Shown: positions 2,302-24,230 of the stretch, piece by piece
Position numbering within the stretch: the stretch's first letter is position 1
Layout: each line of letters begins with the position of its first letter
Source of the DNA: Gammaproteobacteria bacterium
Lineage (GTDB): Bacteria; Pseudomonadota; Gammaproteobacteria; SZUA-152
Assembly (NCBI GenBank): GCA_029882975.1
Contig: JAOUJW010000013.1
Coordinates: 1 to 64,000, forward strand
Reading direction: 5' to 3'
DNA: 64,000 nt
Translations under genes and position numbers: made by a program
Notes under the pieces: generated by a model
What the model was told of the DNA's origin: nothing
Databases searched by the model: none
Seen by the model: the letters and a program-made list of their open reading frames with translations, nothing else

Positions 2302-3498
2302 TCAATGCCTATCCTTCTTTTCCAGCCCTTGGATTTGTCTTAGTTTCTGCACATTCTTGGTAACGTATTTATTGGTGTAGTCAATAATGCTTTTGCCGCC
2401 ACCCACATCGGTTTGCAGAATGTTCATGATACTTTCTTTGGCTTTTTCAGGATCGGTATCATTTTGCAACATACTTTGAGCGAAGCGGCCGGAAAAACTG
2501 TTGGGGTCTAACAATACGGCTTTGCGGGCCAGCGCTTTGGCCTCGTCACGGCGCCCTTCCAACACGGCGATAACGGCTAAACCTCCGTGATTCTCGCTAA
2601 AATTGTGATCCACCTCCATGGCACTGTTAAAACTTGCCTTGGCCCCCTCGATATCATCCATCATGAGTTGGCACCAAGCCAGCGCTTGCCAGCTACCCAA
2701 GTGCTGCGGCATGAATTTTACGGCTTTTTCCAGATCGCTGATTGCCTTGGGAATATCCATATTCATCATGTCAACCATACCCAACCCAGACCAGGCACGA
2801 CCACTCTTGGGAGAGCGGTTCAAAGCTTTGCTAAAATGTTTTCCAGCTAAGTCGGTATCATATTCATCTAATGCCAAAGAACCCAAGGCGACTCTTGCTT
2901 CCAGATTGGCGTCATCTATACGAATCGATTGCTCCGCACACTCACGGGCTTGATCGTCGTGGCTTGCATCAACATTAAGCAATGCCAATATTCCCAATGC
3001 TTCGGCATCTTGCTTATGCTGTTGCGTGTACTCCTGCATCAAAGCAATACCCTCTTCCAATCCGCCCAAATGATGATAACATCGAGATAAAAGCTTTGGG
3101 CTTTGCGGTGCCATATCATCACCGGCATCGATGTTCAATAGCAGCTCTTTTGCATCTTCAAATTGGCGCGTCAGTGTTTTTGCAAAAGCCAAATTATATT
3201 TAACGGCACTGTTATCCACACCCATAGCATTGAGCTGCTCTAAAACTTCTATGGCCTCTTCCGCATCGCCTCTGGCAATAGCAATATTAGACAGGCGAAA
3301 CATCAAGCCGGGTTCGGCTTGGAGGTTGACTGATTGCAGCACCTCCTTTGCGGCATCGAACTGGCCCAGTTGGTAATGTAAATCGCTGAGTTGTGCCACG
3401 ATATTGACATTACCCGGATCCTGTTCGTGGTAAGCCTGGTATTTCTTCAATTGCTCGCGCAATTGTTTTTCTCGAAAATCGATCGTGACACCACTCAT
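2302..3498 (-). CDS. TPR-repeat protein at the 3' end of the flagellar-type locus
   Basis: This 398-residue protein is made almost entirely of tetratricopeptide repeats, about 8-10 of them, with typical A/G-x-L and A-x-x-x-L helix patterns from residue 35 to about 350. It has no signal peptide or membrane segment, so it is probably a cytoplasmic scaffold or chaperone. Its ATG lies 1 nt past the stop codon of the TPR gene upstream, so the two are co-transcribed and probably translationally coupled. TPR proteins serve as chaperones and sorting factors in injectisomes (the SctG type). A similar role here is inferred from position only. Confidence 0.75.
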   Translation of the reverse strand: MSGVTIDFREKQLREQLKKYQAYHEQDPGNVNIVAQLSDLHYQLGQFDAAKEVLQSVNLQAEPGLMFRLSNIAIARGDAEEAIEVLEQLNAMGVDNSAVKYNLAFAKTLTRQFEDAKELLLNIDAGDDMAPQSPKLLSRCYHHLGGLEEGIALMQEYTQQHKQDAEALGILALLNVDASHDDQARECAEQSIRIDDANLEARVALGSLALDEYDTDLAGKHFSKALNRSPKSGRAWSGLGMVDMMNMDIPKAISDLEKAVKFMPQHLGSWQALAWCQLMMDDIEGAKASFNSAMEVDHNFSENHGGLAVIAVLEGRRDEAKALARKAVLLDPNSFSGRFAQSMLQNDTDPEKAKESIMNILQTDVGGGKSIIDYTNKYVTKNVQKLRQIQGLEKKDRH

Positions 3499-3499
3499 A

Positions 3500-4069
3500 T
3501 CAATTAATTACCTTATATGCGTCTCCCGGCATTCCGGCAGCGGCGGTTCCTGCTTCCGTTGACGTGGCACCGGCATCTAAAGCCTGTAACAGCTCTTTGG
3601 CTTTTCCAAAGTACAAATTGTCCGCCGCAGCGGATTGCAGCAATATTCCCAGCGTTTGTCTGGCATCAGCCACGTTATTATTTTGCGCCAAGGCCAAGCC
3701 TTTGTAAAACAAAGTGGGGGGATGGGTGGGTTGCGAGTCCAGCAATTGTTCCCATATTTGTAAGGCTTGATCCTTGTCACCGCTGTCAAAATGAACCATA
3801 CCATATTGGAATGTTTCCGTAACTGCGCCGGGTTGCAAATCCAAATACTGCTTCATGTAGGCTTTTGATTTTTCGAACAAACCTATTTGGGCATAGATTT
3901 TACCCAAAGTCCCCACGGCCTCCATATCCTCGCTATTCCGATTCAACACACACTTGATTTTGATGATCGCTTTTTCAATATCGCCCTTATCCATATCGAT
4001 ACGAGCAAGGGCGACCAATTCATCATCGTCCAGTTGCTTAAATGGATCCGTTGCTGCCACTTTTGCCAT
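3500..4069 (-). CDS. TPR-repeat protein, possible secretion chaperone
   Basis: The protein has 189 residues with about four TPR units between residues 15 and 165 and an Ala/Thr/Gly-rich tail. It starts with a FKQLDDDELVALA segment resembling the LDEEELLHLAL opening of the TPR protein at 24614. The two therefore look like paralogues placed at either end of the flagellar-type cluster. It has no signal peptide. It lies downstream of the sigma factor gene with a 118-nt gap and just upstream of the larger TPR gene. A chaperone or adaptor role for the secretion apparatus is inference; the fold is clear. Confidence 0.75.
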   Translation of the reverse strand: MAKVAATDPFKQLDDDELVALARIDMDKGDIEKAIIKIKCVLNRNSEDMEAVGTLGKIYAQIGLFEKSKAYMKQYLDLQPGAVTETFQYGMVHFDSGDKDQALQIWEQLLDSQPTHPPTLFYKGLALAQNNNVADARQTLGILLQSAAADNLYFGKAKELLQALDAGATSTEAGTAAAGMPGDAYKVIN

Positions 4070-4187
4070 ATCCGTTCTCCTCTGTAATCTTTTTCACTCT
4101 GTTATCTTTGTCACTCTTTATTCTTTGATACTCTCTGACACTCTTAATCTTTAACACGTCTAATTTTTAACAATGCACCGAAACACA

Positions 4188-4919
4188 CTAATAACTCACA
4201 TCCAGTTCCCGGTTGTATTTACTGCGAATAATATTGATAGCACTTGTATGAATCTGCGATATACGACTTTTGCTTAGATCCAATATCTCTGCAATATGCT
4301 CGAACAACAAATGGTTAAAATAGTGATACTTCACCACCATTCGTTCTACCGTGGGCAATTCATCCACAGTTGCCTTGATCTGTTGTTTTAACAAAACGTA
4401 TTCGTTATTGTGGTAGATGGTTCCTTCAACCAATATGGGCTCCGGTTCCTTGAACCCCAAATCATCAATCATATGTACAACTGCCAAATTAATGGTGAGG
4501 TTGACGATATCCTCCAAGGTCCGTACCGGACCCATTTGCGACAAAATAGAGAGATTTCTTTGGCTTTTAAGCACTTTGCAATAGGCGCTGTGCTGTCGCT
4601 TCTCTGTTTGCCGCACCAACCCTGAATAAATCTCACCTTTTATACGGTAACTGGAATAAGTAGTGAAACTGGCATTTTGTTCCGGCTGGTACCGGTCTAC
4701 CGCTTCAATCAATCCCAAAAGACCGTATTGGTAATAATCCATGTACTCCACATCATTACTGGTCCGATTAGCATAGACATGTGTCGCCAGTTTTCTTGCA
4801 AATGGCGTATACAAGGCAATCAATTTGTCTCTGGTTGCGACATCACGGTTTAGTGAAAAAGCCTCCCATAGGCGGGCTTCATCGTCAAACTGTTCCGTGT
4901 TTGCATCCAAGCCAGCCAT
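4188..4919 (-). CDS. fliA: Flagellar-type sigma factor (sigma-28 family)
   Basis: This 243-residue sigma-70 family protein has FliA architecture. Region 2 (residues about 60-110) contains YYQYGLLGLIEAVDRYQP followed by FTTYSSYRIKGEI. Region 4 near the C-terminus is a helix-turn-helix (HIAEILDLSKSRISQI). FliA directs RNA polymerase to late flagellar promoters. The gene starts directly after the fliP stop codon, so it belongs to the long operon. No flgM anti-sigma gene is visible in the window, and the usual late targets (filament, stator, chemotaxis genes) are absent too. What it transcribes is therefore an open question. Confidence 0.9.
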   Translation of the reverse strand: MAGLDANTEQFDDEARLWEAFSLNRDVATRDKLIALYTPFARKLATHVYANRTSNDVEYMDYYQYGLLGLIEAVDRYQPEQNASFTTYSSYRIKGEIYSGLVRQTEKRQHSAYCKVLKSQRNLSILSQMGPVRTLEDIVNLTINLAVVHMIDDLGFKEPEPILVEGTIYHNNEYVLLKQQIKATVDELPTVERMVVKYHYFNHLLFEHIAEILDLSKSRISQIHTSAINIIRSKYNRELDVSY

Positions 4920-5672
4920 TCAAGCAAAACTGCTCACCAAAGAGTTCACCACCAAACTCCAACCATCAATCAAAACAAACATCATGATTTTGATCGGCAT
5001 GGAAATCATCATGGGCGGCACCATCAACATTCCCATGGACATCAAAATACTGGCCACCACAATATCTATGAGTAAAAAAGGTAAAAATATGATAAATCCT
5101 ATTTCAAATGCCGTCTTCAGCTCACTGATCATGAATGCCGGCAATAACGTAAAGCTGCTAACATCATCCACACTGGCAGGTGCTTCTTGTTTTGACAATT
5201 CCAACATAAGGGCCAGGTCCTTTTCCCGAGTTTGTCGAATCATAAACTCGCGAATTGGCTGCATTCCCACTTGCAGTGCCTGATTGGAAGTGATTTGATT
5301 ATTCAAATAGGGCTGGAATGCATTTTGATTCATTGACGAGAACACGGGGGCCATAGTAAAAACGGTTAAAAACAAGGCCAAACTAATGAGCACGGTATTG
5401 GGTGGCGTTTGCTGCATGCCAAAGGCATGGCGCAAAATGGATAAAACGATAATAATTCGGGTAAACGAGGTCATGACTATCAGTAAAGCCGGCACCAATG
5501 ACAATACCGTTAAACCCACCAGCACTTTGATGGCAGTCGCTACATCCTGTTTATCGCCACTACTATCACCGATAGTGATGTCCACACCAGGCAATTGAAT
5601 ATCCGCTGCTGATGAGACATCTGCAAACAGGACACACACGATAAATACTATAAATAACAAACCCGGTTTCAT
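4920..5672 (-). CDS. fliP: Flagellar export gate protein FliP
   Basis: FliP forms, with FliQ and FliR, the membrane core of the flagellar type III export gate. The 250-residue length is usual. A signal peptide (ending near SSAAD) is followed by a short periplasmic segment, then the conserved block LLIVMTSFTRIIIVLSILRH at about 65-84. Near residues 195-235 are paired helices with LPFLLIDIVVASILMSMGM and MPIKIMMFVLIDGW. All hallmark FliP motifs are present, so this part of the apparatus looks functional. It follows fliO after a 103-nt gap, the largest inside this part of the operon. Confidence 0.97.
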   Translation of the reverse strand: MKPGLLFIVFIVCVLFADVSSAADIQLPGVDITIGDSSGDKQDVATAIKVLVGLTVLSLVPALLIVMTSFTRIIIVLSILRHAFGMQQTPPNTVLISLALFLTVFTMAPVFSSMNQNAFQPYLNNQITSNQALQVGMQPIREFMIRQTREKDLALMLELSKQEAPASVDDVSSFTLLPAFMISELKTAFEIGFIIFLPFLLIDIVVASILMSMGMLMVPPMMISMPIKIMMFVLIDGWSLVVNSLVSSFA

Positions 5673-5775: not shown

Positions 5776-6252
5776 CTAAAGCTCAGAGGATTCTCCCCCA
5801 GATTCCCTGTCAACAACTGTTAGCTGCTCTCCTGTTTGCGCCAACAAAAACTGCTTACCCTTAAATTCAATGTGAATAAGCGTACTTTTGGGCGTAATCC
5901 GTTTCACTTCTACAAGTCGGATGTTCTTACCATCAGCAGTACCGGCTTGCCCTAAACCAAAATAGTACTTTTTCAGAAAGTAAACCGCTGCCGCTCCCAA
6001 CAAGACGGAAAAAAACAGACCAAACATTAACTTCACCAACAGGCCCGCCGTGATAACTCCTTCTTTTTTGAAGGGAACCGATTCGCTCTTGGGTACTATT
6101 GATGGAGCAGCCGCCCCAGCCGCTCTTGGTACAGACTTATCTACAGTATCTACTGCTTTAACTGAAGAAGAATCGGATGCTAGAGCACTAAACGATACTG
6201 CAATTGCACACACAAATACGAAGCAAAGAATGGAAAAAAGCGACCGTCTCAC
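5776..6252 (-). CDS. fliO: Flagellar export protein FliO
   Basis: The protein has 158 residues with an N-terminal signal-like helix, a Ser/Ala/Pro-rich periplasmic stretch, one transmembrane helix around 68-92 (LLVKLMFGLFFSVLLGAAAV) and a cytoplasmic domain with the pattern IRLVEVKRITPKSTLIHIEF. That is characteristic of FliO, the assembly factor for FliP. It sits between fliN and fliP, the standard fliNOP order, with only 1 nt after the fliN stop. FliO is absent from non-flagellar injectisomes, so it supports a flagellar rather than an injectisome origin for the locus. Confidence 0.9.
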   Translation of the reverse strand: MRRSLFSILCFVFVCAIAVSFSALASDSSSVKAVDTVDKSVPRAAGAAAPSIVPKSESVPFKKEGVITAGLLVKLMFGLFFSVLLGAAAVYFLKKYYFGLGQAGTADGKNIRLVEVKRITPKSTLIHIEFKGKQFLLAQTGEQLTVVDRESGGESSEL

Positions 6253-6253
6253 G

Positions 6254-6559
6254 TCACACCGTGTCCATTATCTCGGTAATTCGAATACCAAAATTGTCAC
6301 CCACCGCAGCCAAGGCACCCCGGGCAACGACTTTTCCGTCCAAGACGATATCCAGAGGTGCTGATACATCGGTATTCAAGGCAATGGTCTGATTCTCTTT
6401 GAGATCCATCAGTTCGCCGACACTTAGCTCCGTGTCTCCCACAAACACCTCTAACTTAACTTTTACGTTTTTTATTAAGTCCAGGTGATTGTCTACGACC
6501 TTCTTTCCATTCAACTTTTCTTTTTTTAACTCAGCCAGCTCGATTGACTCAACGGCCAT
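6254..6559 (-). CDS. fliN: Flagellar switch/C-ring protein FliN
   Basis: The protein is about 101 residues and consists essentially of one SpoA (FliMN C-terminal) domain: VKLEVFVGDTELSVGELMDL, then PLDIVLDGKVVARG and FGIRITEI. FliN builds the lower C-ring and docks the FliH-FliI export complex. I chose the ATG at 6559 over the ATG at 6574 because GGGAGGT lies 7 nt upstream of it, inside the longer candidate. It is followed by fliO. Confidence 0.95.
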   Translation of the reverse strand: MAVESIELAELKKEKLNGKKVVDNHLDLIKNVKVKLEVFVGDTELSVGELMDLKENQTIALNTDVSAPLDIVLDGKVVARGALAAVGDNFGIRITEIMDTV

Positions 6560-6591
6560 TGGTTTACCTCCCATTTTAATAAATGCTAATA

Positions 6592-7380
6592 CTAATCAAC
6601 TGATCCGCTAACTATTTTTAAAGCCTTTTTCCCTTCACTACTACCCAAAGAACCCACACACCCTGCGGCACCATCGCAGGAAATCAGGGCGACTGGTTGA
6701 TCCAAAGTCTCCTGTAAGCGGATAACATCACCGACCTGAAGCGAAACCAAATCACCAAAGGTCACTTCAACCGTTCCCAACCGTGCCTTGCACTGTACTT
6801 TTAAATGTCGAATGGCGTTTTGCGAAGATTCCAGTGCTTTGGAATCGGACTTTGTTGTGGAAGTCGGTAGATAAATGTCAACCACACTCTTTGTTAACAA
6901 TAAACGATACTCGCAGTGGTCGATATACACTGTGACACACACGCATCCAGAACCGGGAACATAAATATGCCCTGGAATGGCTTCCAAGGTTTTTATCTCA
7001 ACGCTCGCGGTTTGGTCCATGGATAGAACATCCGCTCCTAAACCGGCAAAGGCTTTTAGCACAACGGCTCGGGCAAGACTGCCATCGTTTAAATCCAACT
7101 TGCAGTCGCCTCGTGCCTTAGCAAATATTTGCTCGCCCAGATGCTGTATATGTGATTCCGACACAATGAAGTACATGGATCCAATGCCGTTTTCCAGCAA
7201 ATACACTTGCGCAGGTTCGTCACCTACTTGCGCCAAAGGCTCTTCGGCCAAATCCAGCCAGGTTTCACAACGTTCATGCCCCAACCAATTTTGAGCCCAA
7301 CGACTTAATCGGCTTTCGAGCTGTCGGTGCAAGGAATGCAATTCCGACTGTTTAAATAGTTTAAAATCCCGTATGTGCAT
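6592..7380 (-). CDS. FliM/SctQ-like C-ring protein without CheY-binding motif
   Basis: The protein has 262 residues; canonical FliM has about 320-340. The C-terminus (about 190-258) is a recognisable SpoA domain (VQCKARLGTVEVTFGDLVSL). The N-terminus starts MHIRDFKLFKQSELHSLHRQ and lacks the LSQDEIDALL motif by which FliM binds phosphorylated CheY. The middle region is not recognisably the CheC-like FliM domain that binds FliG. In this it resembles SctQ of injectisomes more than FliM. Its ATG overlaps the flgE stop by 1 nt, and fliN follows after 32 nt, so it fills the FliM slot. I infer a sorting-platform role without chemotactic switching. Confidence 0.75.
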   Translation of the reverse strand: MHIRDFKLFKQSELHSLHRQLESRLSRWAQNWLGHERCETWLDLAEEPLAQVGDEPAQVYLLENGIGSMYFIVSESHIQHLGEQIFAKARGDCKLDLNDGSLARAVVLKAFAGLGADVLSMDQTASVEIKTLEAIPGHIYVPGSGCVCVTVYIDHCEYRLLLTKSVVDIYLPTSTTKSDSKALESSQNAIRHLKVQCKARLGTVEVTFGDLVSLQVGDVIRLQETLDQPVALISCDGAAGCVGSLGSSEGKKALKIVSGSVD

Positions 7381-8591
7381 TATTTTCTATTCATCGTTTC
7401 AAGTAGTTGTTGTAGCATTTCGTTGGACACAGTGAGTATTTGCGAAGACGCCTGATAGCCACGTTGTACCACGATCAAATCGGTGAACTGTTGGGTCAAT
7501 TCCACGTTTGAAAGTTCTATACTTTTACCGACGATATCACCCAAACCGTTATGCGCCGCTGCGGAAATAACCGGTTGTTCCGATTCCGCAACCATAAATA
7601 AGTTGTCGCCAATTTGGCGCAGCGAACCCAGATTATCCACGCGGGCTAATGCTAAACTGAGAAAGTCTTCTGTATTACCATTGGTATAGTTGAGCACCAT
7701 GGAACCGTCGGCTTCAAACGTGACCTCTTTCAAGCCACCCACGTCATAACCATCCACCTTATCGACTTCTATATTCGTCGCATCTACCGCCCCGGATAGT
7801 GATCTCACACCGGAATAACTGCCTGGAGTCCCGAAGTTCAAAGTGATCTCATTACCCTCCAGGTTTTCCGGCTTGTACTCAAATGTAAACGTATTAAACC
7901 CTTCTGTTGGAGTCCCGTCACCGCTAAAATGTATTTCTCCTCTGGTGGCGATAACTTCATCCTTGTCGTCTTTTACTTCCACAATCCAGTTATTGGCTTC
8001 GTCATGAGTGAGGATAAGTTTTAACTTATGTTTATTCCCGGCCACATCGAATATCTCTATATCCGGAATTTCATGAGTTTCCGTCGCCGTAGACAACACA
8101 TTTTTAAAACTGATGTTGGATGTTGCTTTGGGAGGACTGGTTCTCAGGGCGTTAATATCGATTTGCCTCAATTTTCCATTCTCATCCAAGCCCATGACGA
8201 TTTGGTTTTCATCGCCGCGCGCTACCAATATTCCATCATCATTAAACTCAAATTGACCGCCTCGGGTATAGAATATTTCATCGCCTTTTCGGATGACGAA
8301 AAACCCATTGCCATCGATAGCAACATCGGTCGCCACATCGGTAGAACGAATATCCCCCTGTGACAAACGCAATTTGGTCACCGACGCATCCACACCACCG
8401 CCCATATTTGCACCCAGTGAATAGCCGTCCGCTCCACTGTTGAGCTGATATCGATAAAAGATGTCCTGGAATATCAGATCATTGCCTTTGTAGCCGGGTG
8501 TATTTAGATTGGACACGTTATCACTGATAACATCCAAGCCTTTTGAGAAAGCCGTTAAACCGGACAAACCAGAGTAGATAGCATTAAACAT
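7380..8591 (-). CDS. flgE: Flagellar hook protein FlgE
   Basis: The protein has 403 residues, a normal hook length. The N-terminal rod/hook helix is intact (YSGLSGLTAFSKGLDVISDN, then VSNLNTPGYKGNDLIF), and a matching C-terminal helix contains IELSNVELTQQFTDLIVVQR and a YQAS motif. The middle is the variable surface domain D1/D2. The hook normally forms the flexible extracellular joint between rod and filament. No hook-filament junction genes follow it here, so the hook may be the outermost structure. It lies 11 nt after flgD. Confidence 0.96.
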   Translation of the reverse strand: MFNAIYSGLSGLTAFSKGLDVISDNVSNLNTPGYKGNDLIFQDIFYRYQLNSGADGYSLGANMGGGVDASVTKLRLSQGDIRSTDVATDVAIDGNGFFVIRKGDEIFYTRGGQFEFNDDGILVARGDENQIVMGLDENGKLRQIDINALRTSPPKATSNISFKNVLSTATETHEIPDIEIFDVAGNKHKLKLILTHDEANNWIVEVKDDKDEVIATRGEIHFSGDGTPTEGFNTFTFEYKPENLEGNEITLNFGTPGSYSGVRSLSGAVDATNIEVDKVDGYDVGGLKEVTFEADGSMVLNYTNGNTEDFLSLALARVDNLGSLRQIGDNLFMVAESEQPVISAAAHNGLGDIVGKSIELSNVELTQQFTDLIVVQRGYQASSQILTVSNEMLQQLLETMNRK

Positions 8592-8602: not shown

Positions 8603-9049
8603 CTATGGGGTGACGGTATCCGCCGCGGTGGATTGTTCACCTGGCGATACTAATGAAATTTGTGCCAATGACACGTTTTGGTCGTAAACTCCATTGAAAT
8701 TGACGGTTAACAACGGCTTTCCTTGTTGAAAGCGTACGGCGATGACATCACCCACCTCGCCACCATTTTCTGTTTCCACCTGAACTGTTTTCCCAATCAA
8801 GCCAATGGACTGCTCGGCCGCCTGCATGGTCAATAAAGCGGTCAGGTTTTCGTTGGACTCCCGAGTTTGTTCCAAACTGGAAAATTGCGCCAATTGGGCA
8901 ATAAACTCCTGATTGTCCAGCGGCTTTAAAGGATCCTGATAAGTTAGCTGGGTTAGCAGAATCTTAAATAAATCCTCTTGCCCGATTCCTGCATTTTGTA
9001 CCTGTTGTTGCGGGCTGGTCAGGTTTGTACCAATACTTTCCACTGCCAT
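8603..9049 (-). CDS. flgD: Hook cap/scaffold protein FlgD, short form
   Basis: The N-terminal FlgD signature is clear (GQEDLFKILLTQLTYQDPLK, then PLDNQEFIAQLAQFSSLEQ). A short beta-rich Tudor-like segment follows (IGKTVQVETENGGEVGD). At 148 residues it is well below the usual 220-240 and appears to lack the inserted FlgD Ig-like domain. FlgD caps the growing hook. Truncated FlgD proteins occur in some bacteria, so the loss need not inactivate it. The gene lies between the fliK-slot gene and flgE, the usual fliK-flgD-flgE order. Confidence 0.92.
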   Translation of the reverse strand: MAVESIGTNLTSPQQQVQNAGIGQEDLFKILLTQLTYQDPLKPLDNQEFIAQLAQFSSLEQTRESNENLTALLTMQAAEQSIGLIGKTVQVETENGGEVGDVIAVRFQQGKPLLTVNFNGVYDQNVSLAQISLVSPGEQSTAADTVTP

Positions 9050-9061: not shown

Positions 9062-9769
9062 CTAGTAATATTCAAACAATTCTGATTGGGATGGATTCTT
9101 CTGTGCTTTTTGCGCAACTGACTCCATACTGGCATCTGCAAAAACGACTTCACTGTTTAACGTAAATAGCGCCAGCTTCACGCCACTTTTATTCAATAAG
9201 GACACGAGTTGTTGTACCAACCTCATCCCCTGACCTCGATCCAAACTACTATCTCTAAGCCACAGTCTTACTGAGCCATCTGGGGCGCTAACCATATGCA
9301 TGCCCTGCTTCGTTAGCGGCCTGAATTCCGTCGGCTTGCCTTGGAATCCGCTTTGGCTTTTTTCTGCTCTAACTGCTGAGCTATCCGGTTTGTGGTTTAC
9401 CAAACTGGAACTCGTCCCATTTATGATGCCTCGTGCCCCTGATTTCCTTGCAGGGGTGAACCCCGCAACCGGTTTTTGGTTCGCCTCTGTGTCATGCGAA
9501 GCAACAAGCCCAGTATTGGTCCGAGATGCACTTTGAGCTTCAGGTAACACAGGATTTGTTTGTCCCTTCGGTTTCCGGCTGCTGCTTATCTCGCCCGGTT
9601 CAGTTCGAGTCTTTTCTGTAGTATGACTAGAACCCGTATTTTCTTTTAGTTCATTCTCCTGCTTTAAATACATACTCTCCCATTCCTGAGACAGGCGAGT
9701 GCTGTAAGCCGTGCTGTTTTGTTTGGCCGTAACGTGTTCCTGAACCATTGAGTGCACTTTACTTGACAT
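9062..9769 (-). CDS. Protein in the FliK (hook-length control) position, highly divergent
   Basis: This 235-residue protein is encoded between fliJ and flgD, where fliK usually lies, and overlaps fliJ by 11 nt. Residues 1-150 are low-complexity and rich in Ser, Thr, Lys, Gln and Gly, like the disordered ruler region of FliK/SctP. The last 85 residues form a compact domain (SVRLWLRDSSLDRGQGMRLV, then LLNKSGVKLALFTLNSE). I do not recognise the classical Flg_hook C-terminal motif in it. It may be a FliK analogue that sets hook length and switches export specificity. That is inferred from position and composition, not homology. Confidence 0.6.
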   Translation of the reverse strand: MSSKVHSMVQEHVTAKQNSTAYSTRLSQEWESMYLKQENELKENTGSSHTTEKTRTEPGEISSSRKPKGQTNPVLPEAQSASRTNTGLVASHDTEANQKPVAGFTPARKSGARGIINGTSSSLVNHKPDSSAVRAEKSQSGFQGKPTEFRPLTKQGMHMVSAPDGSVRLWLRDSSLDRGQGMRLVQQLVSLLNKSGVKLALFTLNSEVVFADASMESVAQKAQKNPSQSELFEYY

Positions 9770-15255: not shown

Positions 15256-15645
15256 CTATACCCCCTTTTGGCTTACTGCCATCTTCATAATTGCGCCCCG
15301 TTTTTCCAGCCCCAATAACAGCGCACGGTATTTAAGTACATTTTCGGATAAATCGGCCATTTGCTGATCCAATTCAACCTTTTCACCGCTAGCCATTACT
15401 GTGGTATCGCCTGACGTCACTCGATTAACCAACTGTTGCAATTGTTCTTTGTTCAAAGCGCCCAACTCCTCCATGTAACCCATGGATACAGATTGTAAAT
15501 ATTCTTCAAAACCGACTTTACTGGGCGTGAATCCCGGGGTATTGGCGTTGGCAATATTGTTCGAAATCACTTTATGTCGATAAGAGGCCACATCCAATGC
15601 CGCTTTCACCAACTGTGACGTATATCCACCCAAGTCATCTATCAT
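15256..15645 (-). CDS. flgB: Proximal rod protein FlgB
   Basis: This 129-residue rod protein carries the N-terminal signature VASYRHKVISNNIANANTPG and a C-terminal helix with ADLSENVLKYRALLLGLEKR. FlgB is the most proximal axial rod component, contacting FliE. It lies 33 nt after flgI and directly before flgC. Confidence 0.96.
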   Translation of the reverse strand: MIDDLGGYTSQLVKAALDVASYRHKVISNNIANANTPGFTPSKVGFEEYLQSVSMGYMEELGALNKEQLQQLVNRVTSGDTTVMASGEKVELDQQMADLSENVLKYRALLLGLEKRGAIMKMAVSQKGV

Positions 15646-16843: not shown

Positions 16844-17440
16844 TTAAAACAACCAATTGATTAATTTGGTAATTACCCCTGGCTTGGACTTGTCTATAAG
16901 CAAACCTTCTCCTTCCAAGGCGATCCGCGCATCCGCGAGACGAGAAGACAACACCGTATTATCAGGAGATATGTCTTCCGGGCGCACGCGACCCGACACT
17001 TTTATTTGTTGTGATTCTTCATTGAGCACAATGGACTGCTCACCGCTAACGATCATATCGCCGTTTTGTAAAACTCTTCTAACGGTTACGGATACGCTGG
17101 CGATTAATTTTCCAGTGTGACTACTGGTTCCACCCCCGTCGAATCCATTGGAAAGCCCTAATGAGCCACCGATTTCGTTGGTACCATCAGATGCCGCCAG
17201 ACCAACGTCCGTTGACTTACCCGCATCAGTACCCGTGCTGGTGGAGGCTGTAGTAGATTCGTAAATCATCACCGTAACGATGTCACCTTTCTTTTTGCCT
17301 TTGCTATCGGCAACCAAGGATTTGTAATTTTCATCCTTGTACAAACTATCACCCAAAACAGTTTCTATTGACGACAATGCTACCAACACTCCTAAGCAAG
17401 CAGAGAAAAGCACCTGTTTTGATACACCACTAAATTTCAC
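16844..17440 (-). CDS. flgH: Flagellar L-ring protein FlgH, apparently without a lipid anchor
   Basis: This 198-residue protein (FlgH is commonly 220-235) has the L-ring blocks KKGDIVTVMIYESTTASTST, TGKLIASVSVTVRRVLQNGD and MIVSGEQSIVLNEESQQIKV, plus VLSSRLADARIALEGEG. FlgH is usually a lipoprotein. Here the N-terminal hydrophobic segment (VLFSACLGVLVALSSIETV) has a Cys inside the hydrophobic core rather than at a convincing lipobox. Cleavage by signal peptidase I near VLG-D looks more likely, so the ring may be held by protein contacts alone. It overlaps flgA by 4 nt. Confidence 0.93.
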   Translation of the reverse strand: MKFSGVSKQVLFSACLGVLVALSSIETVLGDSLYKDENYKSLVADSKGKKKGDIVTVMIYESTTASTSTGTDAGKSTDVGLAASDGTNEIGGSLGLSNGFDGGGTSSHTGKLIASVSVTVRRVLQNGDMIVSGEQSIVLNEESQQIKVSGRVRPEDISPDNTVLSSRLADARIALEGEGLLIDKSKPGVITKLINWLF

Positions 17441-18438
17441 AATCGACTCTCCCCATCGGCAGAAACCGCATTTTTCCCAATGACCCTGACACTGTATTTC
17501 AAACCGTCTTCCTTTTTCACTTTGATTCGATCACCGGAAAATCCCTCCTCCAAAGCGATGGCTTTGGTGTTAAGCAACACATTACCGACCTGGGCAACCA
17601 CGTCCACTCTCGAACCGGAGACAACGTCCGGAACAACAGAAAAATGTGTTTTTCGTACAACCGCACCCTCACTAACACCACGGCTCAGTCTTTGCTTCAC
17701 CATAGCCGAATCATCGGTAACGACATCACTTAACAAAGCTATGTTTTTTTTCATCTTACGCGTTTTTACGCTACTGAGTAACTCACCTTTCTCATAGGAA
17801 CTTGCGTATACCAATACCTCTCTCATTAGAGTCACAGAAAACCATACCGGTATAGTGCGGTAATGCTCCCCATTCACAGAGATATCCACCCATACCGCCA
17901 TTCTATGGTACAAACGTTTACCCTTACCTGCAGCTACTTTTGCGTTAATCGACACTTCTCCTTTCGGTAAATCAATATCACCATAAGCATCGCTTTGTAG
18001 AGAAATCTTCACGTCCGACCCATAGTCGTCCAGATACCGTCTCAGGCATTGTTCCGCCGCAGTTACATATGCCGTTTTCTCATATGTCTTCCCCATACGC
18101 CCCACGACCACTTGTGAGGCACCCAGCCATCGCAATTGAGCGACTGATCCCGGAAATTGTTTCTCCACAATAGCTGCTATATGTAATGCATTCATATGGC
18201 GAAACGCTCCAACCCTGGGAGCCGCCCCCAGTTCCACCTGCGCTAATTCACCGGCCATTGGTGAATCCGCAGGCTCAAAATCCGCAATGTCTCCCAAATA
18301 AACACGGTGCTCGCTTAACCACTGCCGTTCTTTCAAAAGCACCTGTTGACGGCCCTCAGTTTCCACAACAGTTGCCAATGGTGCGGACATCCACACCATT
18401 GCCATTAAAACCATCATGCCACGGACCAGTGAAGTCAT
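17437..18438 (-). CDS. flgA: P-ring assembly chaperone FlgA, long form
   Basis: FlgA is the periplasmic chaperone for P-ring assembly. The 333 residues start with a hydrophobic signal segment (GMMVLMAMVWMSAPLATVV). The C-terminal SAF/FlgA region is recognisable (VKQRLSRGVSEGAVVRKTHF, SRVDVVAQVGNVLLNTKAIA). At 333 residues it is longer than the usual 210-240, with extra N-terminal sequence resembling the two-module FlgA of some proteobacteria. It lies 7 nt after flgG and next to flgH-flgI, whose products it would help assemble. Confidence 0.9.
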   Translation of the reverse strand: MTSLVRGMMVLMAMVWMSAPLATVVETEGRQQVLLKERQWLSEHRVYLGDIADFEPADSPMAGELAQVELGAAPRVGAFRHMNALHIAAIVEKQFPGSVAQLRWLGASQVVVGRMGKTYEKTAYVTAAEQCLRRYLDDYGSDVKISLQSDAYGDIDLPKGEVSINAKVAAGKGKRLYHRMAVWVDISVNGEHYRTIPVWFSVTLMREVLVYASSYEKGELLSSVKTRKMKKNIALLSDVVTDDSAMVKQRLSRGVSEGAVVRKTHFSVVPDVVSGSRVDVVAQVGNVLLNTKAIALEEGFSGDRIKVKKEDGLKYSVRVIGKNAVSADGESRL

Positions 18439-18445: not shown

Positions 18446-19225
18446 CTATCGCCTCAAATTATTCACAATACCCAGCATTTCATCTGATGCCTGAATGACT
18501 TTGGAGTTTATTTCATAGGCTCTTTGAGCCAGGATCATGTTAGTTAGCTCTTCCACCAACTTTACGTTGGACGCCTCTACATACCCCTGCCGTAACAGTC
18601 CCGCACCGCTTTCACCAGGTTTGTAATACATCGGCTCACCCGACTGTTCGGTGGGCAGGTACAGGTTCTCGCCCAACGCTTTCAATCCGGTATCGTTAAC
18701 AAATTGGCCCAATTCGATTTGTCCCAAATCCACCAACCGTTCCTGACCCGGCATCTTAACTTTTACTTCACCATTGGGTTCGATCAACAATGACTCCATA
18801 TCCGAGGGCAGTTGAATCATAGGATTGACCAGATAACCATTGGTACTCACCAAAAAACCCTCTTCATTCACCGAAAAAGAACCTCCGCGGGTATAGGCAT
18901 AGCTGGAATCAGGCAGTACCACCTCGTAAAATCCTTTCCCGTCTATAGCGATGTCTAATAATTTTTCGGTTTTTTTCATTTCGCCAACGCTAAAATCTTT
19001 ACTCGTTGAACTAACGGCGGTTCCTAAACCCACTCCATTAGAAGACGCTAATGCCTCCAGGGAGTTAAACGCCGGATTAAGTTGTCGATACATTAGATCC
19101 TGAAAATCCACCCGACTCTTTTTAAATCCTGCCGTGTTCACATTGGCAAGATTGTTCGATATCACATCGATTTGTGTTTGCTGCGCCTGCATGCCAGTCG
19201 CTGCCACATACAATGAATCCGACAT
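18446..19225 (-). CDS. flgG: Distal rod protein FlgG
   Basis: The 259-residue protein has the distal-rod N-terminus SLYVAATGMQAQQTQIDVIS with NNLANVNTAGFKKSRVDFQD, and the C-terminal QGYVEASNVKLVEELTNMIL with AQRAYEINSKVIQASDEML. FlgG forms the distal rod inside the P and L rings. Size and motifs are fully canonical. It follows flgF after 39 nt. Confidence 0.97.
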   Translation of the reverse strand: MSDSLYVAATGMQAQQTQIDVISNNLANVNTAGFKKSRVDFQDLMYRQLNPAFNSLEALASSNGVGLGTAVSSTSKDFSVGEMKKTEKLLDIAIDGKGFYEVVLPDSSYAYTRGGSFSVNEEGFLVSTNGYLVNPMIQLPSDMESLLIEPNGEVKVKMPGQERLVDLGQIELGQFVNDTGLKALGENLYLPTEQSGEPMYYKPGESGAGLLRQGYVEASNVKLVEELTNMILAQRAYEINSKVIQASDEMLGIVNNLRR

Positions 19226-19264: not shown

Positions 19265-20020
19265 CTAGAATTCGCCCAATGTTCTAATTGCGGTATCCAA
19301 CACACTGTCGTAGCCGCTAATGACTTTTTGTGATGCTTCGAAATGTCGCATCGTTTCAATTAATTCAACCATCTCGCGCATGGAAGACACGTTGGAATTT
19401 TCCAGATAGCCTTGTTTAATCCGATAGGATTCCGGCTTTCCGGCAGTCAATCCAGCCGATGCTTTATACAATCCGGCGCCAATACTTTGTAGCGAACGAC
19501 TATTTTTTACATCCACTACTTTTAGCTGTGCCACCAGACTCTTGCCTTCCCAAACATTTCCTTCCTGATCTATCCGAGGCGAGCCAGTGGTCAAACGAAT
19601 ATCACCACCCTGGCCTTGCACTGGGAAACCACTTAACGTAACCAAGCGGCCTTTGGCGTCTTTAGAAAAACTCCCTTTGCGCGTAAATGCCAACCCTGCA
19701 TCGGTCATTACTTCAAACATTCCGTCACCGGCAATAGCCAAATGCAGGGGTTGGCCGGTGTTTTTCACGGATCCATCGCTAAAATCAGTCAGGTTCTCCA
19801 CATTGGCAATAAACCGTTGTTTATGTGCTTTCGCAGCCCTTTCCGAATAAGATTCGTTCAATTGTTGCGTGTTAAGCATTGTTGCTTCAAAGGAATTCTG
19901 TACTGCGATTCCCTTTTTAAATCCTTCTGTGTTCACGTTAGCCAGGTTATTACTAATGGTATTGAGGCGCTGCATGTCATTTTGCATGCTGATTTCCATA
20001 ATCTGAATTAAATCGCTCAT
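19265..20020 (-). CDS. flgF: Proximal rod protein FlgF
   Basis: This FlgG-like rod protein of 251 residues starts QIMEISMQNDMQRLNTISNN and continues LANVNTEGFKKG. Its C-terminus reads IKQGYLENSNVSSMREMVEL with a final HFEASQKVISGYDSVL. By position before flgG and sequence it is FlgF. The distinction from FlgG rests on gene order and the atypical first helix. It starts 30 nt downstream of flhA. Confidence 0.93.
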   Translation of the reverse strand: MSDLIQIMEISMQNDMQRLNTISNNLANVNTEGFKKGIAVQNSFEATMLNTQQLNESYSERAAKAHKQRFIANVENLTDFSDGSVKNTGQPLHLAIAGDGMFEVMTDAGLAFTRKGSFSKDAKGRLVTLSGFPVQGQGGDIRLTTGSPRIDQEGNVWEGKSLVAQLKVVDVKNSRSLQSIGAGLYKASAGLTAGKPESYRIKQGYLENSNVSSMREMVELIETMRHFEASQKVISGYDSVLDTAIRTLGEF

Positions 20021-20050
20021 ATTGTTCTCACCCGTTTCCTGTATTTCTGT

Positions 20051-22102
20051 TTAAAGATTTACCATTCCAAAAGCCCGCAATCGCACCGTATTTGGTATCT
20101 CAGTCATTGATACCACCGACAATTGAGGCATAACCCGCACTGTGAAACTCCATATGTATCGACGCAGTTCCGGTGAGCACAACAATACGGGCAAGTGGTT
20201 TTCCTTCATCATACTCTCCACCTGTGCTGACAATTTCTGTAACAGCTGTTGCGCCATATTGGGTTCAATGACAATTTCCGCGTTAGATACACCTTGTTTT
20301 ACACCGGCGGCCAAGGAACTTTCCACCTTTGGGTCCAGGGTCAACACATGTAATTCGCCATTCTCATCCGCGAGACTCTGACAGATGGCAGTTGCTAATT
20401 TTTGTCGCACCAACTCTGTCAAAACGCCAATATCTTTAGTCTCTTTACCCTTATCCACCAACACTTCCACAATGGCAATAATGTTTCTTATAGAGACCTT
20501 TTCACTTAGCAAGTTTTGTAATACTTTTTGTATGTCTGTCACCGCTAATACATTCGGCACTAACTCTTCAATCAAGCCGGGGTCGCTTTCCCGTACCCGG
20601 GCCAACATACGCTCGGTTTCCGCTCGACTTAATAAATTCGCCGATTGTTGCTTAAAAATCTCACTCAGATGCGTCATTAGCACGGTGCTTGGATCAACAA
20701 TGGTATAACCTGTTGTACTGGCCGATTTTCTCGCATCCTCTTGTATCCACACGGCGGGTAGCTGATAGGTGGGGTCCTTGGTTGCCACACCTTCCAGTTT
20801 TTTCGTGGCATCGCCTGGGTTAATTGCCAGAATCCTGTCCTGATAAATCTCACCCTCTCCGGCTTTTACGCCATGCACACTGATTTCGTAGCTGTTTGGC
20901 GCAAGTTTTTTGTTATCTTTTACTCTCAACCTGGGTACGACAAACCCCACATCCAAAGCGTATTGCTTTCTGAACGCCGCCACTCGATCCATAAAATTAC
21001 CGGTAGCCGAATCCACCATCGATATCAGATTCTGCCCGACTTGCATTTCTATAGGCTCAACTGCCATTTGGGAATAAATATCGTCCGTATCTTTATCACT
21101 TGAGTCTGGTTCCAACTCTTCGCTCGACTGTGTTTGCCTGGCCCTATAGGAGTAATAAGTCAATAACAACATTATCGTTAATACAATCAATACCGGCACT
21201 ACAGGTATACCCGGCAACAGCAAAAACACCGTTAAACCGATGGACACAAGCAGCAGCGTTTTTGGAAAAGCGATTACCTGGCGACTGATTTCCCGACTTA
21301 ACATTCCGTCAGATCCCGCCCTGGTGACGATGATCCCAGTACCAGTGGAAATTACTAACGCGGGTATTTGTGTAACGATACCGTCACCGATAGTCAGCAA
21401 AGTGTAAGTATGTAAAGCCTCACCCCACGCCATACCTTTCTGCGCAATCCCAATTGCCAAACCACCAATAATGTCAATTAGAACAATTACTATACCGGCA
21501 ATGGCATCGCCTTTAACAAACTTACTGGCACCATCCATCGCCCCATAGAAACTTCCCTCTTTCTCTATGTTTCGCCTGCGTTGTTTCGCTTCTTTGTCGT
21601 CAATTAAGCCGGCACTTAAATCCGCATCTATGCTCATTTGTTTGCCTGGCATACTATCTAGCGTGAAACGAGCCGCCACCTCTGCAACGCGCTGCGCCCC
21701 ATTGGTGACAACGATATACTGAACTACTATTAAGACCAGAAACACAATCAGGCCAATAATGTAGTTTCCGGAAACCATGTGCGAGCCAACAGTATCTATA
21801 ACCTGACCCGCATCGGTATCACTCAATATCAATCGTGTTGCTGAGATATTTAACGCCAGTCGGAATAAGGTGGCTATCAACAACAAAGACGGAAACGTAG
21901 AAAAATCCAATGGTTTGTCGACATAGAAGGTCAGCAACAATATCACCAGCGCAAAACTGAAGTTACATATCAGAAAAAAATCCAACAGGGCAGGTGGAAT
22001 AGGCGTAAACAAAATCGCAAGAATACCGACAATAGAAAAAGCAAGAATTAGATCGGAATGCTTACCCAGCGAAGCTCTGAAGTAGCTTAACACATCTCCC
22101 AC
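20051..22102 (-). CDS. flhA: Flagellar export gate protein FlhA
   Basis: FlhA forms the nonameric export ring. The protein is about 683 residues. Eight transmembrane helices occupy roughly residues 15-310. The cytoplasmic FHIPEP-type loop is represented by EVAARFTLDSMPGKQMSIDA followed by DLSAGLIDDKEAKQRR. The C-terminal domain contains AVWIQEDARKSASTTGYTIV and the LVRQKLATAICQSL block. I favour the GTG at 22102, which has GGAG 7 nt upstream and lies just past the flhB stop. An ATG at 22144 would add 14 residues and overlap flhB. Confidence 0.96.
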   Translation of the reverse strand: MGDVLSYFRASLGKHSDLILAFSIVGILAILFTPIPPALLDFFLICNFSFALVILLLTFYVDKPLDFSTFPSLLLIATLFRLALNISATRLILSDTDAGQVIDTVGSHMVSGNYIIGLIVFLVLIVVQYIVVTNGAQRVAEVAARFTLDSMPGKQMSIDADLSAGLIDDKEAKQRRRNIEKEGSFYGAMDGASKFVKGDAIAGIVIVLIDIIGGLAIGIAQKGMAWGEALHTYTLLTIGDGIVTQIPALVISTGTGIIVTRAGSDGMLSREISRQVIAFPKTLLLVSIGLTVFLLLPGIPVVPVLIVLTIMLLLTYYSYRARQTQSSEELEPDSSDKDTDDIYSQMAVEPIEMQVGQNLISMVDSATGNFMDRVAAFRKQYALDVGFVVPRLRVKDNKKLAPNSYEISVHGVKAGEGEIYQDRILAINPGDATKKLEGVATKDPTYQLPAVWIQEDARKSASTTGYTIVDPSTVLMTHLSEIFKQQSANLLSRAETERMLARVRESDPGLIEELVPNVLAVTDIQKVLQNLLSEKVSIRNIIAIVEVLVDKGKETKDIGVLTELVRQKLATAICQSLADENGELHVLTLDPKVESSLAAGVKQGVSNAEIVIEPNMAQQLLQKLSAQVESMMKENHLPVLLCSPELRRYIWSFTVRVMPQLSVVSMTEIPNTVRLRAFGMVNL

Positions 22103-22104
22103 AA

Positions 22105-23184
22105 TCACACTCCGTCTCTTTTCTTGCGCATGGCATACACCCAAACCAGTATTTTCGCTACTTGAGCAAAGCTTTCTTCCGGCACGTATTCGTCGATATT
22201 AGTCGTCTTAAATAGCAATCTCGCCAAAGGCTTATTTTCCACCACCGGTATTTGATTCTTGTTTGCCAACAGCTTTATTTTTTCTGCGACTTCACCAGCA
22301 CCTTTGGCGATAACAGACGGAGACCGCATTTTATTTCTATCATATTGCACTGCAACGGCTAAATGAGTTGGGTTGGTTATAATGACATCCGCATCGGGAA
22401 CCCGACTAATGGCGCCCACTCTTTTCGCCGCTTCTTTCTGCAACTCTCTTTGCTTGGCTCGCACTTGAGGGTCACCCTCGCGGCGTTTGATTTCATCACG
22501 CAATTCGCGCCGACTCATCATCATTCTTTTAGAAAAATCCCATTTGGTATACACCAAATCTATAATCATAATGATGCACAACACCACCAACAGCTGAAAT
22601 ACCAAATGAGTACCATCATGCAATAACGCCTTGCCAAACAGATGGGAGTCGACATTTTGCATTCGTAATAGAGACATTATTGTGTCTTGCAAAAAGAGAT
22701 ATATTACTGTTGAAATTAGTGCCAATTTCACCGTATTTTTAAACGCCTCAAACAACATTTTCTTGGAAAACACCCGCTTAAATCCTTTAACGGGATTCAG
22801 CCTCTGAAAATCTGGTTTGACCGGATGAAAAGAGAAAACCGGGCCGGTTTGCATAAAATTGGCGGCTACCGCAGCTACAAACATCACTAGCAGCAAGGGC
22901 CAGAATATATCCACCATGGCCCGGACCACATTTCCCAGAAAAGTATTAATGTGTACCGCATCCCAAACCACATTGTGAGCCCCGGCCAATAGCCTGCCGG
23001 TCAATCCTGCCTCTGCAACAATGAAGTGGTTTCCAAACATATAGACCAGCATCAACATCGATGTGAGAATCACAATGGAGTTGAATTCCAGGCTTTTTGC
23101 CACCTGCCCCATACGTTTTGCTTCCCGTAGCTTATACGGTGTCGCCTTTTCTGTTTTGTCCAGATCCTGCTGATGTTCTGCCAT
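22105..23184 (-). CDS. flhB: Flagellar export gate protein FlhB with autocleavage motif
   Basis: The 359-residue protein has four transmembrane helices (residues about 30-215) and a cytoplasmic domain. It carries the autocleavage motif NPTH in DADVIITNPTHLAVAVQYDR at about residue 268. FlhB switches export from rod-hook to late substrates after cleavage at N|PTH. The motif is intact even though no late (filament) substrate genes are present in the window. The gene starts 3 nt after fliR. Confidence 0.97.
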   Translation of the reverse strand: MAEHQQDLDKTEKATPYKLREAKRMGQVAKSLEFNSIVILTSMLMLVYMFGNHFIVAEAGLTGRLLAGAHNVVWDAVHINTFLGNVVRAMVDIFWPLLLVMFVAAVAANFMQTGPVFSFHPVKPDFQRLNPVKGFKRVFSKKMLFEAFKNTVKLALISTVIYLFLQDTIMSLLRMQNVDSHLFGKALLHDGTHLVFQLLVVLCIIMIIDLVYTKWDFSKRMMMSRRELRDEIKRREGDPQVRAKQRELQKEAAKRVGAISRVPDADVIITNPTHLAVAVQYDRNKMRSPSVIAKGAGEVAEKIKLLANKNQIPVVENKPLARLLFKTTNIDEYVPEESFAQVAKILVWVYAMRKKRDGV

Positions 23185-23187
23185 ACC

Positions 23188-23958
23188 CTATCCCAACACC
23201 TGTTCCCAATAGCGGAACAATCCGGAAAACAAACTTTCTATGGTTGCCGACATATACTTAATAGACAGCGCAAGCACTAACAAACCCACGGCTATTTTAA
23301 GCGGCAATCCCACTATAAAAATATTCACTTGAGGCATAGTTCTGGCAGCCACCGCCATACCAATATCCAATAGCAGTAGCGTCAGAACCGCCGGTGAGAC
23401 AATTGCCAAGCCGTAAACAAAGACCACTCCAAACTGACTAACCACAACGGCCATATTCAACTCAGTTAGAGAAACACCAACAGGCAAACGCTCGAATGAG
23501 TAAACCAATCCGCGCAACACATAGTGATGCGCATCCAGTGCAAAAAACACGATGACTGCCATTATCGTTAGCGCCGTACCCAACAAAGCGTTTTGCGCAC
23601 GAGTCAATGGATCGATCAAACCAGCTACTCCAAAACCCATTTGAAAGTCCAGGATTCGACCCCCAAACATAAATACGGCAAACACAGCGAAAATACCAAA
23701 CGCCAGCACCATACCGACGAACAGTTCTGATAACGCCGCCGAAAACAATTGACCAAATGACTCGGGCACTTCATAAGTACCAATAGCATCACCAACCCCA
23801 CCGTAAACCATCGCAGCCAACCCAAGCACCAACAAAACTTTTATTTTTACTGGCAACTGTGTTAGTGACAACAGAGGAGACAATATAAATACGGCCCCGA
23901 TTCTGATGGACATCAGGATTAGCGTTATAACTGAGTTTGCGTTAACAGTTATATCCAT
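23188..23958 (-). CDS. fliR: Flagellar export gate protein FliR
   Basis: The protein is about 256 residues with six predicted membrane segments. The N-terminal MSIRIGAVFILSPLL block, the FGGRILDFQMGFGVAGLIDP motif near residue 100 and the C-terminal SPAVLTLLLLDIGMAVAART are typical of FliR. I chose the ATG at 23958, 5 nt after the fliQ stop, because it begins the conserved helix; an ATG at 24030 would overlap fliQ by 67 nt. FliR completes the FliPQR export pore. Confidence 0.95.
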   Translation of the reverse strand: MDITVNANSVITLILMSIRIGAVFILSPLLSLTQLPVKIKVLLVLGLAAMVYGGVGDAIGTYEVPESFGQLFSAALSELFVGMVLAFGIFAVFAVFMFGGRILDFQMGFGVAGLIDPLTRAQNALLGTALTIMAVIVFFALDAHHYVLRGLVYSFERLPVGVSLTELNMAVVVSQFGVVFVYGLAIVSPAVLTLLLLDIGMAVAARTMPQVNIFIVGLPLKIAVGLLVLALSIKYMSATIESLFSGLFRYWEQVLG

Positions 23959-23963
23959 ATTAG

Positions 23964-24230
23964 TTATAGATACTGTGGTATGTTTCCTATTAATGTTTTG
24001 GAAAAGTTCAGCAGAACACTCAACATCCATGGTCCAAAAACTACCAACACAACACCTACTGTGATTAGTTTGGGTATAAACGTAAGTGACATTTCCTGGA
24101 TTTGAGTAACAACTTGTATAAGACTAACCAGCACACCCACCAACATACTTAAGCCAAGTACCGGCGCACAGATAAGCAAAGCAGCCCATAAGGTCTCGGA
24201 CGTTAACGCTAAAACAAAATCACCCGTCAT
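23964..24230 (-). CDS. fliQ: Flagellar export gate protein FliQ
   Basis: The 88-residue protein with two transmembrane helices has the FliQ motif GLSMLVGVLVSLIQVVTQIQ followed by EMSLTFIPKLITVG. It is the first gene of the long minus-strand locus, so the main promoter should lie in 24231-24600. A purine-rich GGGAGGGG run lies about 20 nt upstream of the ATG, further than ideal for a ribosome binding site. Confidence 0.96.
   Translation of the reverse strand: MTGDFVLALTSETLWAALLICAPVLGLSMLVGVLVSLIQVVTQIQEMSLTFIPKLITVGVVLVVFGPWMLSVLLNFSKTLIGNIPQYL

Follow-up and report, generated by a model that had tools for sequence, protein, structure and literature searches.

The hook-basal body of Buchnera is the reduced primary flagellum of a symbiont. 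Filament-less basal bodies are thought to have been turned into secretion systems (PMC13063649; this and the other papers cited are represented here by excerpts of their text, to which the statements drawn from them are limited). In the non-flagellated Lysobacter enzymogenes OH11, a flagellar type III secretion system (FT3SS) exports introduced flagellin, for which flhB and fliI are needed; the OH11 genes form no operon, and their native cargo was unidentified according to the 2020 paper (PMC7277350). FT3SS genes are also described as required for antifungal toxin secretion (PMC9927559), and Pectobacterium exports carocins S1 and S3 by the flagellar type III secretion system (T3SS) (PMC8672553). 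Here, we analysed a window (the whole stretch of DNA under study) of 64,000 nucleotides from a gammaproteobacterium of the SZUA-152 lineage (JAOUJW010000013.1, positions 1 to 64,000), with which contig C13 begins in a genome of 5.18 Mb that is 99% complete. It holds an array of flagellar-type genes at 2302-24230 on the minus strand, which probably encodes a flagellar-type secretion system that does not rotate and that belongs to a gammaproteobacterial lineage of its own; the main cargo of this system would be giant YD-repeat polymorphic toxins.

The array seen in the initial annotation of this DNA is confirmed, and comprises 27 open reading frames (ORFs) lying head to tail and nearly without gaps, from fliQ (at 24230) to a TPR gene (at 2302). 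Above the Pfam cut-off, 21 of the 27 ORFs are flagellar parts, namely the export gate proteins FlhA, FlhB, FliO, FliP, FliQ and FliR together with FliH, FliI, FliF, FliE, FlgA, FlgB, FlgC, FlgF, FlgG, FlgH, FlgI, FlgD, FlgE, FliN and the protein in the fliM slot (FliMN_C only). Export gate, rod, P and L rings and hook are all encoded, and the ORFs without a flagellar name include a sigma-70-type factor and two TPR genes. The fliK and fliG slots gave no Pfam match at E 0.001, and both names rest on position. None of the 27 ORFs matched the models for flagellin, FliD, FliS, MotA/B, FliL, FlgJ or Che proteins. The array has the core in common with the non-flagellar T3SS (injectisome), and like it would secrete without motility. 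The array differs from it in having the FlgH and FlgI rings, a rod and the FlgE hook, and in having no secretin among its 27 ORFs.

A second FlhA of the same genome was found on contig C4, and 10 ORFs on C4 and C19 matched flagellin, FliD, FliS, full FliG (N, M and C domains), full FliM, FliL, and MotA- and MotB-type, sigma-factor and response-regulator (CheY-like) models; the genome's own FliG_C lies on C19 only. The initial annotation had listed filament, stator and che genes among those not seen; its absences are true of the locus and not of the genome, and full switch genes are likewise missing from the locus only. The window array is not the organism's flagellum, and the organism probably has an ordinary flagellum made from the C4/C19 set. 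Both sets contain homologous FlhA and homologous C-ring, export, rod, ring and hook families, but the window locus lacks the filament, the stator, a full FliG and the Che genes, and its FlhA falls in a separate clade.

The lineage of the window FlhA was placed in a quick tree of 142 FlhA sequences, made without bootstraps and with long branches flagged by the program. In this tree, 47 sequences of the window kind lay on one side of a branch with a Shimodaira-Hasegawa-like approximate likelihood ratio (SH-aLRT) support of 100, outside the primary FlhA. The genome's primary FlhA nested with those of G001 (same genus) and G004 (same family). The search covered one genome of that genus, G001, whose sole FlhA is a primary one. 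An SctV-like sequence (L146) fell far outside the window clade, as a single outgroup row in a quick tree with flagged long branches. That row comes from a compact injectisome-like set on contig C5 of G058 (FlhA-, FliI-, FliN-, FliP-, FliQ-, FliR- and FlhB-like genes), is called SctV-like from this gene content, and belongs to a genome that also carries the window family. The initial annotation had held that a filament, stator and full-length FliG elsewhere in the genome, jointly with an FlhA inside the primary clades, would refute its proposal; the former are present, with stator-type genes among them, and the FlhA lies outside those clades. Its view that the system is distinct from both Buchnera hook-basal bodies and injectisomes is borne out by the separate lineage as well as by FlgH/FlgI, the rod, the FlgE hook and the missing secretin. 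The window machine is likewise filament-less compared with that of Buchnera, but it often occurs in a genome that also holds flagellin.

Of 577 confirmed loci, 80 were retained in the FlhA scan, and the family count is therefore a lower bound. Among these best 80, the nearest relatives of the window FlhA were from gammaproteobacterial metagenome-assembled genomes (61% and below), followed by Dyella, Lysobacter, Kangiella, Microbulbifer, Legionella and others. This scattered spread over species, together with the presence of only a primary FlhA in G001, points to acquisition of the window machine by horizontal transfer.

Gene order was compared in the 34 loci of at least 24.9 kb, a set that stands apart from the shorter loci, the window and 45_16_T64_b, and a gene was counted for a locus if any ORF of the stretch had that profile as its best match. 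The order was fliQ-R-flhB-A-flgF-G-A-H-I-B-C-fliE-F-[G slot]-H-I-J-K-flgD-E-fliM-N-O-P, with a few slots lacking a label in the gene maps, and a sigma factor adjoins the operon in most of the loci. In the profile search, 17 core genes were found in 34/34 loci, fliM, fliH and flgB in 33/34, and the fliG slot and flgA in 31/34. The profiles of the window fliJ and fliK found no homologue in the 34 loci, where ORFs of fitting size occupy most such slots. The loci are related to each other and not independent; the gene order recurs beyond chance. Both the FlhA tree and the comparison of gene order had been proposed as checks in the initial annotation, and they gave a separate clade and an order kept in 34 other long loci.

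Three other Lysobacter loci lie inside the window FlhA clade. By family profile, 3/3 hold a divergent flgB, fliE and fliM and a FliG-slot protein, unlike the loss of flgB, fliE, fliG and fliM in all 15 Lysobacter that was reported in 2023 from BLAST searches against Xanthomonas (PMC9927559). The OH11 FT3SS-like genes resemble the window locus in that neither has flagellin or motor genes, a likeness judged from the papers and not from sequence (PMC7277350, PMC9927559). As to the suggestion that the window holds an undescribed system, the Lysobacter genes have been studied, although in the excerpts of these papers not as such a family.

Searches for flagellin, FlhA, FliG_C and MotB covered 40 of the 43 family genomes behind the loci (all but those of L024, L069 and L071), the window genome (G000) and G001, which gives 41 family genomes, 40 reached via loci plus the window genome. 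Flagellin had no match in 13/41, and FliG_C was absent from the same 13. In 11 of these 13 genomes no MotB_plug was found either (MotA was not searched genome-wide), while a single match was seen in G070 (39.8 bits) and in G091 (21 bits, with an internal stop). The other 28 genomes, which are the window genome and 27 more, have flagellin and at least one FliG_C elsewhere, with FliG_C on a different contig from flhA or at least 180 kb away. In Dyella acidiphila (G063), contig C23 carries a second, divergent FliG_C with a MotB_plug match about 46 kb off. The separate FlhA clade and the 13 genomes without flagellin and FliG_C support the dedicated, apparently non-motile flagellar secretion organelle of the initial annotation. 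Its tie to an autotroph does not stand, as the family has members in Lysobacter, Dyella, Kangiella, Microbulbifer, Legionella and Pseudoalteromonas, among others.

The C-ring proteins are reduced. An AlphaFold model of the FliM-slot protein (pLDDT 85) had FliM as its best PDB match (E 1.6e-11), and hhalign against canonical FliM gave 98%. Residue 6 of the model aligns to FliM residue 44 (2hp7), which indicates that the N-terminal segment is missing; in motile flagella this segment binds CheY. A first idea that this protein is SctQ-like, which came from Pfam seeing FliMN_C only, was dropped because the model and the profile comparison give FliM. For the FliG-slot protein (12393-12938), there was no Pfam match, nor was there a PF01706 match anywhere on C13. 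The top 13 PDB matches of its model (pLDDT 82) were all FliG, but at Foldseek E values of at least 0.05, and the structural match reached a Z of up to 10.6 over 96 residues, to which moderate weight is given since the protein is helical. Only 10% was obtained by hhalign against FliG (3 FliG rows). It is probably a short FliG-like protein without a detectable torque domain, and its reading as FliG is of moderate strength.

Giant ORFs flank many family loci, and those with YD repeats have one common N-terminus, from which a profile of 12 rows and 102 positions was made. The search with this profile covered 65 of 97 genomes (all 41 with the family and 24 of the 56 others). The giant N-terminus was found in 37/41 family genomes compared to 1/24 without the machine, the latter at 24 bits and over the later part of the profile only. 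As 12 of the 41 genomes had supplied profile rows, the giant was found in 25 of the remaining 29. The window itself begins with such a protein, on which the initial annotation is silent: the first 133 bases (2-133, minus strand) hold the first 44 codons of a giant YD-repeat protein whose gene runs off the contig; the protein matches profile A1 over model positions 1-46 at 42.8 bits, starts at an ATG with a purine-rich stretch upstream and is a candidate substrate of the machine. Contig C49 ends in a near-identical giant start (compared by eye), and contig C51 holds a 7,245-aa frame opening inside the same N-terminal stretch, to which neither the C49 nor the window start can be assigned over the other.

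The giants and the machine are tightly associated. A giant frame lies within 25 kb of flhA in 20/37 genomes and on another contig in the other 17. In Legionella, the giants are on another contig or at least 790 kb from the system, and among 45 Legionella genomes both were found in 12, the system only in 2, the giant only in 1 and neither in 30 (one-sided Fisher 4e-8, with a 29-bit giant match of G453 counted as none). In an even draw of 369 Gammaproteobacteria, a near full-length family FliM was found in 3 genomes, and a giant of at least 92 bits in the same 3; one of them is the window genome, and neither profile contains a row from the other two. Only near whole-model FliM matches were counted, the FliM profile also giving many short FliN/FliM-domain matches.

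The giants have the architecture of polymorphic toxins. When 22 giants were compared, 231/231 pairs matched over the first 600 aa and 0/231 over the last 150 aa; 2 of the 22 are cut before their end, and in the remaining 20 the ends matched in 0/190 pairs. (The Legionella giant L228 was outside this comparison, a base is unread in one Dyella frame, and the end of one Catenovulum frame may be premature.) Copies within one genome show the same pattern, since the N-terminal alignments of two Microbulbifer giants are 99.8% and those of two Grimontia giants 100% identical, with unrelated ends. Lengths are 3,133-7,758 aa for the 20 with ends seen (the start of the 7,245-aa C51 frame is missing), and the longest frame met is 8,582 aa. 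In the Pfam search, 3/13 giant C-termini had a toxin-type domain and 2/6 following ORFs an immunity-type domain. A Kangiella giant ends in Ntox15 (E 1.9e-34), and the gene beside it encodes immunity domains of the GAD-like and Tdi1 types. A Microbulbifer giant has a C-terminal SLT transglycosylase domain, a Dyella giant has a C-terminal Tox-ART-HYD1 (E 3.3e-31), and a SUKH immunity gene follows a Grimontia giant. NCBIfam gave no toxin name for ten giant-related pieces; below its cut-off were a TaeI-family immunity model for the Kangiella neighbour and transglycosylase models for Microbulbifer. PADLOC found nothing in six giant-related proteins. In the C51 frame of the window genome, RHS repeat, Ig-like and lectin-like domains lie towards the start and LysM lies close to the end; the next ORF, of 163 aa, overlaps the frame and received no name from Pfam.

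By a crude measure, the hydrophobicity of the giant N-termini is 0.96-1.75 compared to 2.06-3.66 for four signal-bearing products of the operon (flgI, flgH, flgA and fliP). For axial, cap and ruler proteins, eight in all, the values were -0.21 to 1.27, with the giant N-termini near the upper end.

The giants share repeats, variable ends, some toxin domains and immunity genes with the Rhs/YD-repeat polymorphic toxins, and differ from them in that their N-terminus is distinct, conserved and associated with a flagellar-type system (PMC3482391). The excerpted text of that paper contains one flagellar link, a nuclease of firmicute flagellar operons (PMC3482391). The carocins share with the route proposed here that antibacterial proteins leave through a flagellar system, and differ in that they are low-molecular-weight bacteriocins exported by an ordinary flagellar set (PMC8672553). 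Among the matches listed in a search of the open-access literature, to which most subscription papers do not belong, no title or start of an abstract connected polymorphic or YD-repeat toxins with a flagellar system that lacks a filament. The system itself is a kind of flagellar T3SS, and the association with giant toxins is the new part.

From these sequence comparisons, we infer a fixed export organelle without filament and motor parts, in which the inner-membrane gate and the ATPase would sit within FliF and a C ring that is reduced and has no FliG torque domain. Rod and hook would be exported before the giant; the rod through the P and L rings would form the path across the envelope and a short hook the outlet. 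The short conserved N-terminus of the giants is a candidate export signal, the conserved TPR protein is a candidate chaperone, and the giants would be threaded unfolded through the channel. At least some giants would be paired with an immunity gene, and the likely purpose is to kill or inhibit neighbouring bacteria. Somewhat less firmly, we favour regarding the family as a third functional class of type III system, a flagellar-derived, non-rotary organelle that would export giant toxins or inject them into competing bacteria, that would have spread horizontally among Gammaproteobacteria and that may have been overlooked because its genes are annotated as flagellar. If giant-toxin export is true, the system would be a class of its own, an added weapon in bacterial competition and, besides the injectisome, a separate case of a flagellum that became an organelle for secretion. 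The persistence of complete hook-basal-body operons in some bacteria that have no flagellin would be explained, and there would be a native cargo, a question that the Lysobacter authors left open. For the carrier species, motility scored from flh, fli and flg genes would be misleading.

Several results weigh against giant toxins as the main cargo. Frames of 3,000-8,600 aa would be unusually long cargo for a type III channel. No toxin-type domain was found by Pfam in 10/13 C-termini and no immunity-type domain in 4/6 following ORFs, the window genome's own included in both cases. The system occurs without a giant in G057, G059, G070 and G072 (of 41) and in Legionella G460, and Legionella G449 has a strong giant match without a family FliM. 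For the Legionella tree, 30 of the 45 genomes were used as input, namely every genome with the system (14), G449, and 15 of the 30 genomes that have neither. Two of these gave no match and in a third the match was split in two, which left 27 genomes in the tree. It contains four independent pairs on supported branches, too few for significance; on average, the giant differed the same way as the system in 3.2 of them, the opposite way in 0.0 and not at all in 0.8. In the even draw, 16 of the 366 genomes without family FliM have weak giant matches (21-55 bits), which shows that distant relatives of the giants exist without the machine. Seven of these matches start at model position 3-5, and one of these seven genomes has a partial FlhA. 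Lastly, deletion of fliP and fliQ in OH11 left twitching unchanged, so single export genes can have other effects (PMC7277350).

The alternative that survives best, and which we hold to be possible if doubtful, is a filament-less secretion organelle with other cargo, such as hook-type proteins, small effectors or adhesion or surface factors; the giants would accompany the machine because of ecology or regulation and would leave the cell by a different route. It is favoured by the seven draw genomes just named, six of them without any FlhA match, in which distant giants can evidently persist without the machine, and by the effect of the OH11 export genes on twitching and pilin release (PMC7277350). 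However, the association is kept where the giants are unlinked, as in Legionella, and in the even draw, and the N-terminal end of the giants is conserved and without a strongly hydrophobic stretch by the crude measure. An injectisome-like delivery of the giants to eukaryotic hosts, predators or prey (amoebae, fungi) instead of bacteria is improbable: some domains at the giant ends are peptidoglycan- or DNA-directed, which we take to fit bacterial targets, and immunity-type neighbours (GAD-like/Tdi1, SUKH) also suit such targets, while the carriers do include Legionella and Lysobacter, some of the latter fungus-killing (PMC7277350).

Less credible still is a secondary, lateral-type flagellum that borrows the primary flagellin, stator and switch. 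The 28 family genomes with flagellin and FliG_C elsewhere would allow it, but the 13 genomes without either still hold the family FlhA, which largely refutes it, and the C-ring proteins are reduced across the family. An equally remote reading as a decaying relic of a flagellum has the short FliG-slot protein and the truncated FliM on its side and was rejected, like the borrowed filament, here given a gene order and 17 core genes kept in distant genera, and an FlhA clade that is separate from the primary FlhA and not nested in it. Giant-toxin export by a non-rotary machine is the reading that we favour.

The genes of the array are all on the minus strand. The export gate begins with fliQ (23964-24230; PF01313, E 5.3e-26), fliR (23188-24030; PF01311, E 5.4e-54), whose true start is probably further in, and flhB (22105-23184; PF01312, E 3.9e-109), the translation of which has a readable NPTH autocleavage motif. 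These are followed by flhA (20051-22144; PF00771, E 4.5e-249), and by flgF (19265-20020) and the distal rod gene flgG (18446-19225), both named from PF06429, PF22692, PF00460 and position. Next are flgA (17437-18438; PF13144, E 1.5e-13), flgH for the L ring (16844-17440; PF02107, E 8.9e-47), flgI for the P ring (15679-16842; PF02119, E 1.6e-125), flgB (15256-15645; PF00460 and position), flgC (14817-15254; PF06429 and position), fliE (14521-14814; PF02049, E 2.7e-26) and fliF for the MS ring (12993-14507; PF01514, E 1.9e-57). The FliG-slot protein has 181 aa and is named from position and its structure model. It precedes fliH (11538-12332; PF02108, E 1.9e-17), the ATPase gene fliI (10235-11545; PF00006 and PF18269), fliJ (9759-10217; PF02050 at E 1.3e-5, below the cut-off, and position) and the fliK slot (9062-9769), a hook-length ruler by position only. 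The hook cap gene flgD (8603-9049; PF03963, E 2.3e-18) and the hook gene flgE (7380-8591; PF07559, PF06429, PF00460) are followed by the FliM-like protein of 262 aa (6592-7380; PF01052, AlphaFold model and hhalign), fliN (6254-6574; PF01052, E 1.4e-19), fliO (5776-6252; PF04347 at E 4.6e-5, above the cut-off) and fliP (4920-5672; PF00813, E 4.5e-80). The sigma-70-type factor (4188-4919; Sigma70_r2 and r4) is FliA-like by position and size and was found in 26/34 loci. Of the two TPR proteins at the end (Pfam TPR), TPR1 (3500-4069) was found in 6/34 loci and TPR2 (2302-3498), a conserved accessory gene, in 32/34.

On the plus strand, the array has as its divergent neighbour a third TPR protein, TPR3 (24614-25228; Pfam TPR, 17/34 loci), adjoined by a 118-aa ORF (25274-25630) without a Pfam match over the cut-off and with a homologue in 21/34 loci. 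The window neighbours omp185 and a SnoaL-like ORF had no homologue in the 34 loci.

Outside the window, large-frame proteins with a similar N-terminal end were seen in L237, L238 and L239 and in G027, G047, G237 and G343, mostly in genomes without any FlhA; they may be relics of a lost system or use another export route. In four Legionella loci (L157, L163, L164 and L176), one or two ORFs of some 1,000 aa come after the operon; these ORFs are related (50-76% alike) and are possibly further cargo. Related ORFs (41% over 316 aa) also lie near the operon end in L168 (Catenovulum) and L172 (Hahella).

Two large ORFs of the window, at 50289 and 54015, were considered as giants and are not of the YD-repeat kind. 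The first (50289-53882, minus strand) encodes a 1197-aa protein with amidohydrolase and S41 peptidase domains, and the adjoining one (54015-56444) a Sortilin-Vps10/BNR repeat protein. A bpX6 protein of the MoxR-vWA-beta-propeller ternary system type is encoded at 37676-40405 (minus strand). A RuBisCO large subunit gene at 46016-47509 (minus strand) agrees with the initial description of the organism as an autotroph.

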